From Oscillospiraceae bacterium (lineage in GTDB: Bacteria; Bacillota; Clostridia; Oscillospirales; Oscillospiraceae): a DNA stretch of 64,000 nucleotides. The stretch spans positions 1 to 64,000 of the forward strand of contig JAFPWF010000027.1 in assembly GCA_017395085.1 (NCBI GenBank). The letters are read 5' to 3'. Positions 10,503-14,540 of the stretch are shown here, in pieces; the first letter of the stretch is position 1, and each line of letters starts with the position of its first letter. Both the position numbers and the translations under genes were made by a program. The notes under the pieces were generated by a model. The model did not search any database, was not told the origin of the DNA, and saw only the letters and a list, made by a program, of their open reading frames with translations.

Positions 10503-10515
10503 TTCGGAGGATCAT

Positions 10516-11796
10516 ATGTCAAGTTTTGTTGATCATGCGAGGATTCATATCCGCGCTGGGAAAGGCGGAGACGGTGCAGTCGCATTTCACAGGGAGAAAT
10601 ATGTTGCGGCAGGCGGGCCGGACGGCGGAGACGGCGGACGCGGCGGCAGTGTCATATTTGTTCCCGATGATAATCTGACCACCCTGATGGATTTTCGGTA
10701 TAAGCGGAAGTTTGTTGCCGAGGACGGAGCAAACGGGCAGGGAAAACGGTGTGCCGGCAAAGACGGGGAAGACCTTTTGGTGCGTGTTCCTGCAGGCACT
10801 TTGATCCGGGATACGGAATCCGGTGCGCTGATGCACGATATGTCGGACGGAAAGCCGTATCTTGCGGCAAAAGGCGGGCGCGGCGGTTGGGGCAACATAC
10901 ACTTTGCAACCCCGACCAGACAGGTACCAAGATTTGCAAAGCCGGGTCTTCCGGGAGAGAGCAGAGATATTACCCTGGAACTGAAACTGTTGGCAGATGT
11001 CGGGTTGATCGGTTTTCCGAACGTTGGGAAATCCACCCTGTTGTCCGTGGTCAGCAATGCACATCCGAAAATTGCGAACTATCATTTTACGACGCTGTTT
11101 CCGAATCTGGGTGTAGTCTATGCGGAGGAAGGCAGCAGTTTTGTTATGGCGGATATCCCGGGCATCATTGAAGGTGCGGCAGACGGAGCCGGACTCGGAC
11201 ACGATTTTTTACGGCATATTGAACGCTGCCGTCTGCTGGTGCACGTTGTGGACGTGTCAGGCTCAGAGGGCAGATCTCCAGCGGAGGACTTTGATATCAT
11301 CAATTCCGAGCTGCGGGAATATAGCGGCGTGCTTGCTGAAAGGCCGCAGATTGTTGTGGCAAACAAATGTGACATTCTGGGAGAAGACAGGAGCGCAGTC
11401 GATGTACTGCGTGAACGTGCCGAAGAGCACGGTTATCCCTTCCTGGAGCTGAGCGCAGCCGCACACAAGGGAATTGACAGACTTGTTCGCCTTTGTATGC
11501 AGAAGCTTTCCGAACTTCCGCCGCCGGAACCGTTTACCGCTGATTATATTGCTCCGGAACCGGTATTGGATGGAGCCGAAGATGTGGTAATCAAAAAATC
11601 TGAAGGAATTTGGCAGCTGGAAGGTGACTGGTTAAAGCGTGTTGCGGCTACGGTGAATTTTTCTGACTACGAAAGCCGGCTCTTCTTTGACCGTGTCCTT
11701 CGGAAAGCCGGTATTTTTGACCGCCTGGAAAGCATGGGCATCCAGGACGGAGAAACAGTCTGCATCTATGACCTGATGTTTGATTACCGTTACTGA
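10516..11796 (+). CDS. obg: Obg-family GTPase
   Basis: Essential ribosome-associated GTPase acting in 50S assembly and stress control. Order of domains: glycine-rich Obg fold (about 1-160, with AGGPDGGDGGRGG), G domain (G1 GFPNVGKST at 166-174, G3 DIPG at 213-216, NKCD near 287) and a C-terminal OCT domain (about 340-426), as is usual in Firmicutes. The ATG start at 10516 follows GGAGG by 5 bases; the open frame begins earlier but only within the attenuator region. 426 residues. Confidence 0.96.
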   Translation: MSSFVDHARIHIRAGKGGDGAVAFHREKYVAAGGPDGGDGGRGGSVIFVPDDNLTTLMDFRYKRKFVAEDGANGQGKRCAGKDGEDLLVRVPAGTLIRDTESGALMHDMSDGKPYLAAKGGRGGWGNIHFATPTRQVPRFAKPGLPGESRDITLELKLLADVGLIGFPNVGKSTLLSVVSNAHPKIANYHFTTLFPNLGVVYAEEGSSFVMADIPGIIEGAADGAGLGHDFLRHIERCRLLVHVVDVSGSEGRSPAEDFDIINSELREYSGVLAERPQIVVANKCDILGEDRSAVDVLRERAEEHGYPFLELSAAAHKGIDRLVRLCMQKLSELPPPEPFTADYIAPEPVLDGAEDVVIKKSEGIWQLEGDWLKRVAATVNFSDYESRLFFDRVLRKAGIFDRLESMGIQDGETVCIYDLMFDYRY

Positions 11797-11797
11797 A

Positions 11798-12262
11798 ATG
11801 AAAAGAAGCCGAATCCGTTTGGCGGTTTACGGCCTTTTGACAGCTGCGGTAATGTGCCTGATTTATTTCCTGTCTGCCCAAAACGGAGACGAATCAGGAA
11901 ATTTGAGCCGCTGGCTGATGGAAACCGCAATCGGGAGATTTCTTTTGCGTATCCTGCCGCCGCTGACCGGTTCCGGAGCGGCACTGGACATTCGAAAATA
12001 TGCTCATATGGCGGAATATACACTGCTTGCCATGACTTCAGCGATGTTTTACCGGGAGTTGACGTGCGAGTCTGTTCCGAAATGGGCATTATGCTGTTCA
12101 GCTCTTCACTCTTTCCTGTATGCATGTTCCGATGAGTATCACCAGACCTTTGTGGAAGGCAGAATCGGGCAGTTTTCGGATGTGCTGATTGATATGGTCG
12201 GCGTTTTTGCAGGGATACTGTTTGTTTTTCTGCTTGTCAGCCTGAGAAAGGACAGATCATGA
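11798..12262 (+). CDS. VanZ-like membrane protein
   Basis: A membrane protein of 154 residues with about four helices and the VanZ-family signatures KYAHMAEYTLL and DEYHQTFVEGRIGQFSDVLID. VanZ gives low-level teicoplanin resistance in its original setting; most chromosomal homologues have no known function. The ATG comes one base after the obg stop codon and has no strong ribosome binding site, so it depends on coupling to obg. A TTG at 11780 is also in frame. The gene ends in an ATGA overlap with the P-type ATPase-like gene. Confidence 0.82.
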   Translation: MKRSRIRLAVYGLLTAAVMCLIYFLSAQNGDESGNLSRWLMETAIGRFLLRILPPLTGSGAALDIRKYAHMAEYTLLAMTSAMFYRELTCESVPKWALCCSALHSFLYACSDEYHQTFVEGRIGQFSDVLIDMVGVFAGILFVFLLVSLRKDRS

Positions 12263-13944
12263 GTCAAAAGGGTAAAGAATCCAGAATAATCCCTTCGGTT
12301 CTTTCCATTCCGGAAAAACTGAACGGATTGCTTCTGCGCGTCCTGAAAATGAGATTGACGTTGGAACGAGTATTTTCTGTCCGGGATCTGCTGCTTTTGC
12401 TTGGCGCGTTTCTTCTGTTCCTTCTGCGGAGCGTCATACCGTTGCCCGGCATACTGCGTACAGTATTCATGATTCTGATTCTTCTCCTGGCAGGCATCCC
12501 TGTTCTGCTGCAGGGCATTCGATTGGGACTCAGGCGGGCTGTCCCGTATGAAGAAGCCGCTGTTTTGCTTGCGGTTTTCATTGCTGTACTGCTGAAGAAA
12601 CCGGAGGTCTCGGCAGTTTTTCTGCTGTGTACTGTTTTTTTGTGGCAGGTGGAAGGGTATTGCCTGCTGCATGTGGATGCAGCGCCAAGTGCGTTGGCTG
12701 ACATTGATGAGGATGCCAGAAACCTTGTCCTCGCAGCCGATTCGGAAAAAAGCAGGGAACGCAGTGTGATTGCTTTTTCAGCTGTATTGTTCTTTGCGCT
12801 GTTTCTCCTTCTTGCTCTGATTCTGGCGATTGTCTGTTTGTTCCATCTTCAGAATGCTTCTGTATGGATTGCACGCAGCCTTGTTCCTCTGATGCTCGCT
12901 GGGACATCCGCTGTTTTATTCTCATCCCTGCTGACACACTTTGGCGCAATATACAGTACTGCGAAAGCAGGCTCATTTTTCCGGAATGATCAGGTCCCGG
13001 AAGACTTTTCACGCTGCAGGTTATTCGCATTCGGAAAAACCGGAACCGTAACGGATGGTCGATTTCTGATTTCTGAAATCATGCCGGTAGGTGTCTCGGA
13101 AGAAGAACTGCTGAGAATTGCAGCGGTGGCTGAGTGTAAATCGAATCATCCGATCGCGATTGCTCTGAAAGCTGCGGCAGGCCTGAAAGAAGGTGTGGTT
13201 CCCTCCGGTGTTCTGGATGTCCGTGAGGTGCCCGGAAAAGGAGTGAGCACATTCTTCTCCGGGAGACAGATTTATGTTGGAAATGCCAGGCTCCTGGATG
13301 AGCATAACATCTGGTATCAGGTCCCGTCTAAGTCTGGAACTGCGATTCACGTTGCGGTTGACAGCACATATCGTGGTTATATTCTGATTTCAGATTCCAT
13401 CAGAGATAATGCTTTTGAAGCATTGGAAGAATTGCGCGCCCAGGGAGTAAAACAGATTGCAATGCTGACGGGCGATGTGCAGTCTGTCTCACGGGTGGTC
13501 GCTTCGGCTCTCAATTTTGACATGGTGAAATCGGAGCTGACCGCAAACGACAAAGCATCAGCCATTCATTACCTGCGGGCTACGCAGGGAGAAAGCGGAA
13601 AAATTGCTGCAGTCGGAGACGGCGTTCACGACAGTGTAATGTTTGATGCTGCAAATGTATCCGTATGTATGGATGTGAAGCCGGACAAAGATGTTGATCT
13701 GAGTATCTGCACGGACGAAATTCTTACGCTTCCTCAGATTTACAGGATTTGCAGAGAGTCGGAAAGGACTCTATGGATCAGCGTGTTCGGCGTGGCCGGA
13801 GCGAAACTGCTGCTCTGTATTCTTGGTTTGTTTCAGGTGCTTCCGCTTACATTTCTTGCGGTCTTTGACTGCGCAGTGGGAACCGCTGCTGTGATCTATT
13901 CACTGACATGTCTGACACTGGAGCACAGAGGAAACCGGAGATGA
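12259..13944 (+). CDS. Degenerate P-type (P1B-like) ATPase, lacking actuator domain and catalytic Asp
   Basis: A 561-residue membrane protein that clearly descends from heavy-metal P-type ATPases but has lost the parts needed for transport. The phosphorylation motif DKTGT reads GKTGT (G259 in FAFGKTGTVTDG). GDGxND reads GDGVHD (H457). No CPC or similar metal motif precedes the P domain, and the stretch where the actuator domain with TGES should be is only about 45 residues. Still present: the N-domain HP motif (SNHPIAIAL), MLTGD, and paired membrane helices before and after. The reading frame is intact and the ATG overlaps the vanZ stop (ATGA), so this is a maintained pseudoenzyme, not an obvious pseudogene. 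Function unknown; a regulatory or scaffolding role is inference. Confidence 0.85.
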   Translation: MSQKGKESRIIPSVLSIPEKLNGLLLRVLKMRLTLERVFSVRDLLLLLGAFLLFLLRSVIPLPGILRTVFMILILLLAGIPVLLQGIRLGLRRAVPYEEAAVLLAVFIAVLLKKPEVSAVFLLCTVFLWQVEGYCLLHVDAAPSALADIDEDARNLVLAADSEKSRERSVIAFSAVLFFALFLLLALILAIVCLFHLQNASVWIARSLVPLMLAGTSAVLFSSLLTHFGAIYSTAKAGSFFRNDQVPEDFSRCRLFAFGKTGTVTDGRFLISEIMPVGVSEEELLRIAAVAECKSNHPIAIALKAAAGLKEGVVPSGVLDVREVPGKGVSTFFSGRQIYVGNARLLDEHNIWYQVPSKSGTAIHVAVDSTYRGYILISDSIRDNAFEALEELRAQGVKQIAMLTGDVQSVSRVVASALNFDMVKSELTANDKASAIHYLRATQGESGKIAAVGDGVHDSVMFDAANVSVCMDVKPDKDVDLSICTDEILTLPQIYRICRESERTLWISVFGVAGAKLLLCILGLFQVLPLTFLAVFDCAVGTAAVIYSLTCLTLEHRGNRR

Positions 13945-14540
13945 ATGTTTACGATTTTGATGAAACAATTTTTCACCCGGACAGCTCTTTCAGTTTCTTC
14001 TGCTTCTGTGCACGGCATAATACGCTTGCTGTGTCAAAGTGTATTCCTTCGGCTGTAGTACAGTTTTTTCGATATCTGATTCACGGAAAGTCGGATGCCC
14101 GGCAGTTGAAAGAAGCGCTGTTTTCCTTTCTGAACAGGATAGACAATGTGGAGTATTACGTTCAAAGATTCTGGGAAGTACACGCCGGTCAAATCGCACC
14201 ATGGTATCTTGCACAAAAAAAGCCTGATGATTTAATCATTTCAGCATCTCCGGATTTCCTGCTTCGGCCGATCGTTCAGGAGCTTGGAGTGAATCTGATA
14301 GCTACGCGTATGAATCCGTATACCGGAAAGATTACGGGAAAGAACTGCCATGATCATGAGAAAGCCAGACGATTGCTGGAGCTTTATCCCAATGCGATTG
14401 TGGATGAATTTTATTCAGATTCCAGGTGTGATGATCCGCTGGCAGAGCTTGCCGCTAAGGCCTATCTGGTCAGAGGAAATGAACGGATTCCCTGGCCGGA
14501 CAGAAACAAAGATCATCTTGTTCCTGGGATTAATAATTGA
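13941..14540 (+). CDS. HAD-superfamily phosphatase (HAD-IB-like)
   Basis: A 199-residue HAD hydrolase starting NVYDFDETIFHPDSS, with both motif I aspartates, ISASPDF as motif II and VDEFYSDSRCDDP as motif IV. The closest relatives by appearance are SerB-like HAD-IB phosphatases; the substrate is not evident. The start is ATG 13941, which overlaps the stop of the P-type ATPase-like gene (ATGA) and follows CGGAG closely. It is the last gene of the obg chain; a terminator comes 10 bases after. Confidence 0.82.
   Translation: MNVYDFDETIFHPDSSFSFFCFCARHNTLAVSKCIPSAVVQFFRYLIHGKSDARQLKEALFSFLNRIDNVEYYVQRFWEVHAGQIAPWYLAQKKPDDLIISASPDFLLRPIVQELGVNLIATRMNPYTGKITGKNCHDHEKARRLLELYPNAIVDEFYSDSRCDDPLAELAAKAYLVRGNERIPWPDRNKDHLVPGINN

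Follow-up and report, generated by a model that had tools for sequence, protein, structure and literature searches.

What becomes of a P-type ATPase gene whose product can no longer pump, and why would a bacterium keep it? The question is raised by an open reading frame at positions 12259-13944 (forward strand) of a 64,000-nucleotide stretch from an Oscillospiraceae bacterium (assembly GCA_017395085.1, contig JAFPWF010000027.1, positions 1 to 64,000), the whole of which is called the window below. P-type ATPases are named for their phosphorylated Asp and for the cycle of their actuator, P and N domains. An earlier note on this DNA had described a product with Gly259 in place of that Asp, GDGVHD for GDGxND, no CPC metal motif and no actuator, in which the HP and TGD motifs remain, and all of these points were borne out by our analysis. 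The frame, whose 561 codons contain no internal stop, is referred to here as pseudo-pump A. Its features are given below with counts from two alignments described further on, one of 70 actuator-less rows (counted where a row has a letter) and one of 91 orthologues from the genus.

12259..13944, forward strand: pseudo-pump A, actuator-less P1B-type ATPase relative of 561 aa (open reading frame, profile matches, family alignment and AF2 model)
12679..12753, forward strand: short linker, residues 141-165, at the actuator-domain site of real pumps (alignment; long helices on both sides in the model)
12901..12909, forward strand: GTS, residues 215-217, replacing the metal-binding CPC of helix M4 (alignment)
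13033..13035, forward strand: GGA, Gly259, where DKTGT has its phosphorylated Asp (69/69 rows with a letter read G, S or A)
13132..13152, forward strand: N-domain ATP-site Glu292 and His297-Pro298, kept (69/69 rows with a letter; genus 91/91, 84/91 and 89/91)
13234..13242, forward strand: N-domain GxG, Gly326 and Gly328, kept (70/70 rows; genus 83/91 and 91/91)
13279..13284, forward strand: N-domain Gly341-Asn342, kept (70/70 rows; genus 91/91 and 87/91)
13468..13476, forward strand: P-domain TGD, residues 404-406, kept (D in 69/69 rows with a letter; genus 90/91)
13552..13554, forward strand: P-domain Lys432 of HAD motif III, kept (69/69 rows with a letter; genus 91/91)
13615..13632, forward strand: GDGVHD, residues 453-458, both Asp kept, with His at the Asn position of GDGxND (that column reads H 63, Q 5, S 1 of 69)

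Profile searches of pseudo-pump A gave a Pfam match to PF00702 (72.6 bits) and none to the actuator family PF00122, and no residue of the protein falls into the actuator columns of the alignment. Among NCBIfam models TIGR01494 scored above its cut-off, and the pump equivalogs remained far below theirs, TIGR01525 reaching 208.6 bits against a cut-off of 346.25. By sequence the closest PDB relatives are Cd, Zn and Cu P1B pumps, and descent from such pumps is supported by the common P/N fold and the P1B order of membrane helices. The AF2 model agrees with the expectation of the earlier note, a P/N domain on membrane helices with no actuator domain: helices remain at all P1B membrane positions and only a linker occupies the actuator site. 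Pseudo-pump A thus shares with the P1B heavy-metal ATPases (ZntA; TIGR01525/TIGR01512) its descent, helix order, P/N fold and ATP-pocket residues, but it lacks the TGES-bearing actuator, the CPx of M4 and the Asp nucleophile (the local translation reads FGKTGTVTDG) and carries GDGVHD where GDGxND is expected, so that a phosphoenzyme cycle is impossible. The residues of the N-domain ATP site (E, HP, GxG and GN) are all present in the sequence, and we take the E, H, GxG and GN columns to be those of the ATP7B pocket (E1064, H1069, G1099, G1101, G1149 and N1150). Judged from sequence and model, what is left of the pump is a membrane anchor with an N domain that a hinge connects to a P domain unable to form an aspartyl-phosphate.

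To place the gene in a family we drew on a protein search with pseudo-pump A that found 952 proteins, of which the best 120 were listed. The actuator-less set of 70 rows comprises the window query and the top 69 proteins among the matches listed (320-573 aa, with 63 reaching 500 aa or more; identity 43-99%); the first hit, P0002, is the database cluster to which the window's protein belongs, with 7 differences, and the window is in effect present twice, while P0073, a 376-aa fragment with SKTGT, was excluded from the counts. In alignment with intact pumps the actuator columns are empty in 70/70 rows. The Asp column holds S in 43 rows, G in 25, A in one and a gap in one, and never D, which rules out an assembly or reading error at Gly259. 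N-domain E, H and P are found in all 69 rows with a letter there, GxG and GN in all 70, and the TGD Asp and motif III Lys again in 69/69. These counts indicate that the phosphoryl-transfer site has been lost throughout the group and that the residues of the nucleotide pocket have been retained throughout. Two proteins of the search, P0049 and P0054, are actuator-less fragments that are named Cd2+/Zn2+-exporting ATPase in a source.

We next scanned 102 genomes from the window's genus with a profile of 35 members. The 95 loci fetched with their flanks comprise 90 orthologues, each from a different genus genome, two intact ZntA-like paralogues within the genus (L178, L181) and three pumps of other genera (L185-L187), and with the window itself an orthologue was obtained from 91/102 genomes. 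Among the remaining 11, G264 has a match cut by the contig end with a HAD gene after it, G241 has a weaker pump match followed by a HAD gene, and none of the last nine exceeds 80% completeness. The nearest named loci belong to Oscillospiraceae/Ruminococcaceae metagenome-assembled genomes, many from rumen or abomasum. The 91 orthologues form one clade with P0071 and P0072 in a quick tree (93 rows, SH-aLRT 95), and although this tree flags long branches (L183, L174, P0100, L132) and doubtful joins, a careful mixture-model tree repeats the main result, recovering the clade at 96/94 (42 rows, 16 of them pseudo-pump A). Its neighbours on the tree are the intact pumps P0074 and P0075.

Within this clade the orthologues are degraded to different degrees. 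The actuator is absent in nine of the 91, which, window included, form a single clade; in the other 82 it is present (at least 60 residues in its columns) but degenerate, and among these the TGES Glu is kept in 10, the first CPC Cys in 17, the second in seven and the phosphorylated Asp in 29. The residue that stands instead of Asp varies by clade (G, S, E, N, T or C). An intact full-length DKTGT homologue in a sister species, the kind of finding that the earlier note named, for sister strains, as one that would refute its reading, was not encountered: TGES Glu, both CPC Cys, Asp and GDGxxD occur together in 0/91 genus orthologues, compared with 21/22 control pumps (the exception, P0100, is without the second Cys). 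The closest to an intact pump is L132, which keeps Asp and CPC and has SGDK for TGES and GDAEND. Pocket residues are by comparison nearly constant over the 91 (E 91, H 84, P 89, the two Gly of GxG 83 and 91, GN 91 and 87), as are the TGD Asp (90) and the motif III Lys (91). Longer open frames, of 792-956 aa from stop to stop, were noticed in orthologues L107, L108, L143, L152, L154, L159 and L160.

To determine if the gene is under constraint, we calculated dN/dS by the Nei-Gojobori method with our own script for 21 close pump pairs, some of which share a row and none of which includes the window gene. All 21 values lie well below 1 (0.048-0.264), as would be predicted for a maintained gene; three pairs from the actuator-less clade gave 0.150, 0.264 and 0.159, the third with a dS of 1.45. 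The HAD gene next to the pump gave 0.049-0.177 (18 of 20 pairs computable) and ObgE 0.016-0.080 (6 pairs), so the pump gene is constrained roughly like its HAD neighbour and less than ObgE. The regional pattern of conservation is inverted with respect to real pumps, with diverged membrane helices and conserved N and P domains. Mean identity over M3-M4 is 0.31 in actuator-bearing orthologues, 0.44 in actuator-less ones and 0.64 in control pumps, over M5-M6 it is 0.28, 0.39 and 0.59, and over the N domain 0.48, 0.66 and 0.42. As the 22 controls cover a broader taxonomic range than the genus set, the low membrane identity of the pseudo-pumps carries more weight and their high N-domain identity less.

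The evidence that the product is not a pump is strong, and we consider it nearly certain that this holds for the frame at 12259-13944. With only slightly less assurance we regard the product as a maintained pseudoenzyme, since a conserved loss of catalytic residues, a preserved fold and purifying selection are found together, and the maintained pseudo-pump proposed in the earlier note is upheld by the conserved family, by Gly, Ser or Ala and a missing actuator across the 70 rows and by dN/dS well below 1. The conserved family, the genus-wide orthologues and the dN/dS values likewise rule out that pseudo-pump A is a lone degraded gene. Its function is what we infer below.

The same genome (84.5% complete) encodes a second protein of this kind outside the window, pseudo-pump B, a frame of 547 aa (G000:C68:71136-72776, minus strand). 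It was found through the genome's only other PF00122 signal, a partial match of 21.5 bits that is below cut-off. We had considered that the pump might be split, with its actuator encoded elsewhere; this was rejected, given that the second signal is that partial match in B, whose relatives are actuator-free. B resembles A in being P1B-derived, without actuator, about 547 aa long and widespread in the genus, where matches of at least 179 bits were found in 73/102 genomes; none at that level was found in G215 and G219, both from the actuator-less clade of the window. Relatives of B were counted from the best 120 listed, of which 112 measure 520-565 aa and 8 outside that length were excluded. None of the 112 has an actuator. 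In every one DKxG retains its D, K and G, and the N-domain Glu, the HP His and the GN pair are gone; GxG survives, TGD has become TED and GDGxND is replaced. In B itself the motifs read DKPGV, QP for HP and TED for TGD, and its AF2 model shows the P1B fold (pLDDT 81.8). Unlike A, therefore, B retains the Asp and has an ATP pocket stripped of Glu, His and GN, and it constitutes a separate lineage (100/100 in the 42-row mixture-model tree). An origin of A and B by duplication of one dead pump is unsupported because intact pumps intervene on the tree, B being a long branch whose placement is less sure. As read from their sequences, two pump families of one genus have died in complementary ways and both have been kept. 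Of the 19 fetched loci of B, 16 have a tyrosine-recombinase-like gene that is adjacent or at most one frame away, and fba was called in 11 (names given by eye).

The genes around pseudo-pump A in the window are as follows.

10513..11796, forward strand: obgE, upstream neighbour, with L21 and L27 further upstream
11795..12262, forward strand: VanZ-family membrane protein (PF04892, 69.2 bits; ATGA stop/start overlap with pseudo-pump A)
13941..14540, forward strand: HAD-IB phosphatase, candidate phosphatidylglycerophosphate (PGP) phosphatase (PF12710, 63.9 bits; DFDET, SASP and SDSxxD intact)

Downstream the stop of pseudo-pump A and the start of the HAD-IB frame overlap in ATGA. A HAD-IB frame follows the pump in 86/91 orthologous loci, directly in 61 and 60-650 bp further on in 25, and the catalytic motifs are recognised by pattern in nearly all of these 86 neighbours (motif I in 85, II in 82, IV in 86). 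VanZ was called at 25/91 loci, and 33/91 have a same-strand Obg call in the flank that was fetched, at varying distance. A nitroreductase-like gene lies between pump and HAD-IB in 12/12 loci read out of the 25 gapped ones (L124-L129, L132, L138, L144, L146, L150 and L164); an initial identification of this gene as VanZ in some clades was dropped, as it reads as a nitroreductase. Across the genus the HAD-IB gene is present in 93/102 genomes and in 34/34 of those at least 90% complete, and across 81 genomes from the taxonomic family in only 13, two of them of this genus. In G041, from another genus, the next sizeable gene after the HAD-IB homologue on its strand (L201 62-2284) resembles, by eye, a different type of P-type ATPase (ALITGES).

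The identity of the HAD-IB neighbour was approached through its motifs and its distribution. HAD catalytic motifs I, II and IV are present in the window's protein, and the best NCBIfam scores were for TIGR01490 (71.7 bits, cut-off 98.3) and histidinol phosphatase (42.3 bits). PgpC is a HAD PGP phosphatase that, according to PMC11629553, is predicted to be peripheral, requires Mg and is restricted to LPA and PGP. The neighbour shares with PgpC-type enzymes the HAD catalytic motifs and a weak match over most of TIGR01545 (E 0.0014), but it falls far under the equivalog cut-off and is therefore not classed as PgpC. In the 81 family genomes we counted PF09419, the YqeG/Gep4-type family, when a match spans at least 100 positions; we take YqeG-type proteins to be PGP phosphatases on the strength of the Pfam name. 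PF09419 was found in 1/13 genomes with HAD-IB (G031) and in 53/68 without (Fisher p 2.6e-6, uncorrected for relatedness; 55/68 and p 7.9e-7 with two partial matches added), as would be seen where one PGP phosphatase takes the place of another. Its tally of 88/102 within the genus was not counted, as the matches listed cover some 30 residues at the C-terminus of the model; the frames with such short matches, among those listed, are of 266-521 aa. A PF09419 search of the window's own genome gave 0 matches, and pgsA is present there; PgpA was found in 0/102 genus genomes in a survey that did not include PgpB-type enzymes. From this displacement pattern among sequences it seems somewhat probable that the HAD-IB neighbour is the cell's PGP phosphatase, and if so it would supply a step otherwise missing from the pathway in these gut bacteria.

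We propose that pseudo-pump A stems from a Zn/Cd-type P1B ancestor from which the metal site and TGES disappeared and, in the window's lineage, the Asp and the entire actuator as well, the order of losses being read from the tree and undated. The invariant pocket and the N/P fold suggest that the protein probably still binds nucleotide, most likely ATP or ADP. Closure of N on P could then change its shape without transport, and via this closure A may dock or regulate the phosphatase encoded in the overlapping frame, with the outcome that a step of anionic-lipid synthesis would be tied to membrane and energy state. Whether A works with the HAD-IB phosphatase, as the operon structure suggests, is in our estimate evenly poised, and we hold the same of the reading as a whole, a membrane-bound ATP-binding pseudoenzyme that acts as regulator or dock of this enzyme. 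A bolder version, in which A alone or with B senses adenine nucleotides at the membrane and gates the last step of phosphatidylglycerol synthesis via HAD-IB, two pumps having been converted independently, is improbable.

A number of observations weigh against this proposal. The Asp is still present in 29/91 genus orthologues, in L132 little is missing apart from the Glu of TGES and the second GDG Gly, and the His of HP is changed to Asn in 6/91 and to Ser in 1/91. Five of the 91 orthologues (L171, L172, L180, L182, L183) have no HAD-IB beside the pump; four of these genomes carry it elsewhere (G109, G209, G212, G256), and it was not found in the fifth, G232. Outside the genus HAD-IB has no fixed neighbour and no relative of pseudo-pump A beside it (8 loci readable of 11), which makes the pairing specific to the genus and perhaps positional. 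Regarding the phosphatase, the PgpC model TIGR01545 gives 18.5 bits against a cut-off of 259.25 and other models score higher; 13-15 of the 68 family genomes without HAD-IB have no PF09419 either, and G031 has both.

Other explanations can be set against the same data. The many ways in which the transport motifs were lost, with Asp giving way to six different residues by clade, and the fast divergence of the membrane helices would be expected of a functionless relic that decays slowly and is kept by chance; yet dN/dS of 0.05-0.26 in 21/21 pairs, presence in 91/102 genus genomes, pocket residues that are invariant in the actuator-less group and the overlapping reading frames in the window make such a relic very improbable. 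Since helices remain at all P1B membrane positions, A might still transport, for instance as a passive or non-phosphorylating channel or permease. We find this scarcely more credible: M3-M4 and M5-M6 are the least conserved parts, M4 has no metal ligand and Gly259 allows no phosphoenzyme.

Pseudo-pump A could be the dead subunit of a hetero-oligomer that regulates an intact P-type pump, and the genus indeed has the intact ZntA-like paralogues, and MgtA is reported to form a dimer (PMC10925321). However, the window's genome, within its completeness, has a single above-cut-off actuator-domain match, in an 856-aa frame, and the conserved neighbour of A is a phosphatase and no pump, so that this explanation, though the least unlikely of the four, remains improbable. 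Pairing of A with B as a split non-transporting sensor would make sense of their complementary losses, a pocket without Asp in A and an Asp without Glu, HP-His and GN in 112/112 relatives of B, and of the absence of the actuator from both in the window's clade, B being also found (at least 179 bits) in 73/102 genomes. Against it, the altered TGD (TED) and GDGxND of B mean that no working site can be assembled from both, A keeps its Asp in 29/91 genomes, B went unmatched at that level in G215 and G219, which are among the nine genomes whose A is actuator-less, the genes lie about 57 kb apart and the lineages are separate on the tree; we rate such a pairing as low as residual transport.

From the literature, the closest published precedent that we found, by analogy, is the degenerate P4-ATPase domains of alveolate guanylate cyclases. 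In PfGC-beta, according to PMC6592433, the fused P4-ATPase domain has lost signature residues; as proposed for pseudo-pump A, a degraded P-type ATPase module would be associated with another enzyme, there a signalling one. The P4 domain is eukaryotic and cyclase-fused, whereas A is a free-standing bacterial P1B descendant, actuator-free and beside a phosphatase gene. A phage Ca pump (PMC12363816) was set aside as unrelated since it keeps DKTGT. Among the matches listed from the open-licence PMC literature, a scope that does not prove absence, we found no bacterial pseudo-P-type ATPase, and no paper there joined P-type ATPases with pseudoenzymes or described a missing actuator.

The series within one genus, from actuator-bearing proteins without CPC and TGES to those without Asp and finally those without actuator, shows a route from pump to putative nucleotide-binding module and lets N/P closure uncoupled from transport be probed. 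It also carries a risk of misnaming. P0071, which bears an actuator, has GKTGT and is without CPC, passes the NCBIfam cut-offs of TIGR01525 and TIGR01512, that is, of the heavy-metal and cadmium pumps, and the exporter label on P0049 and P0054 is a case in point.
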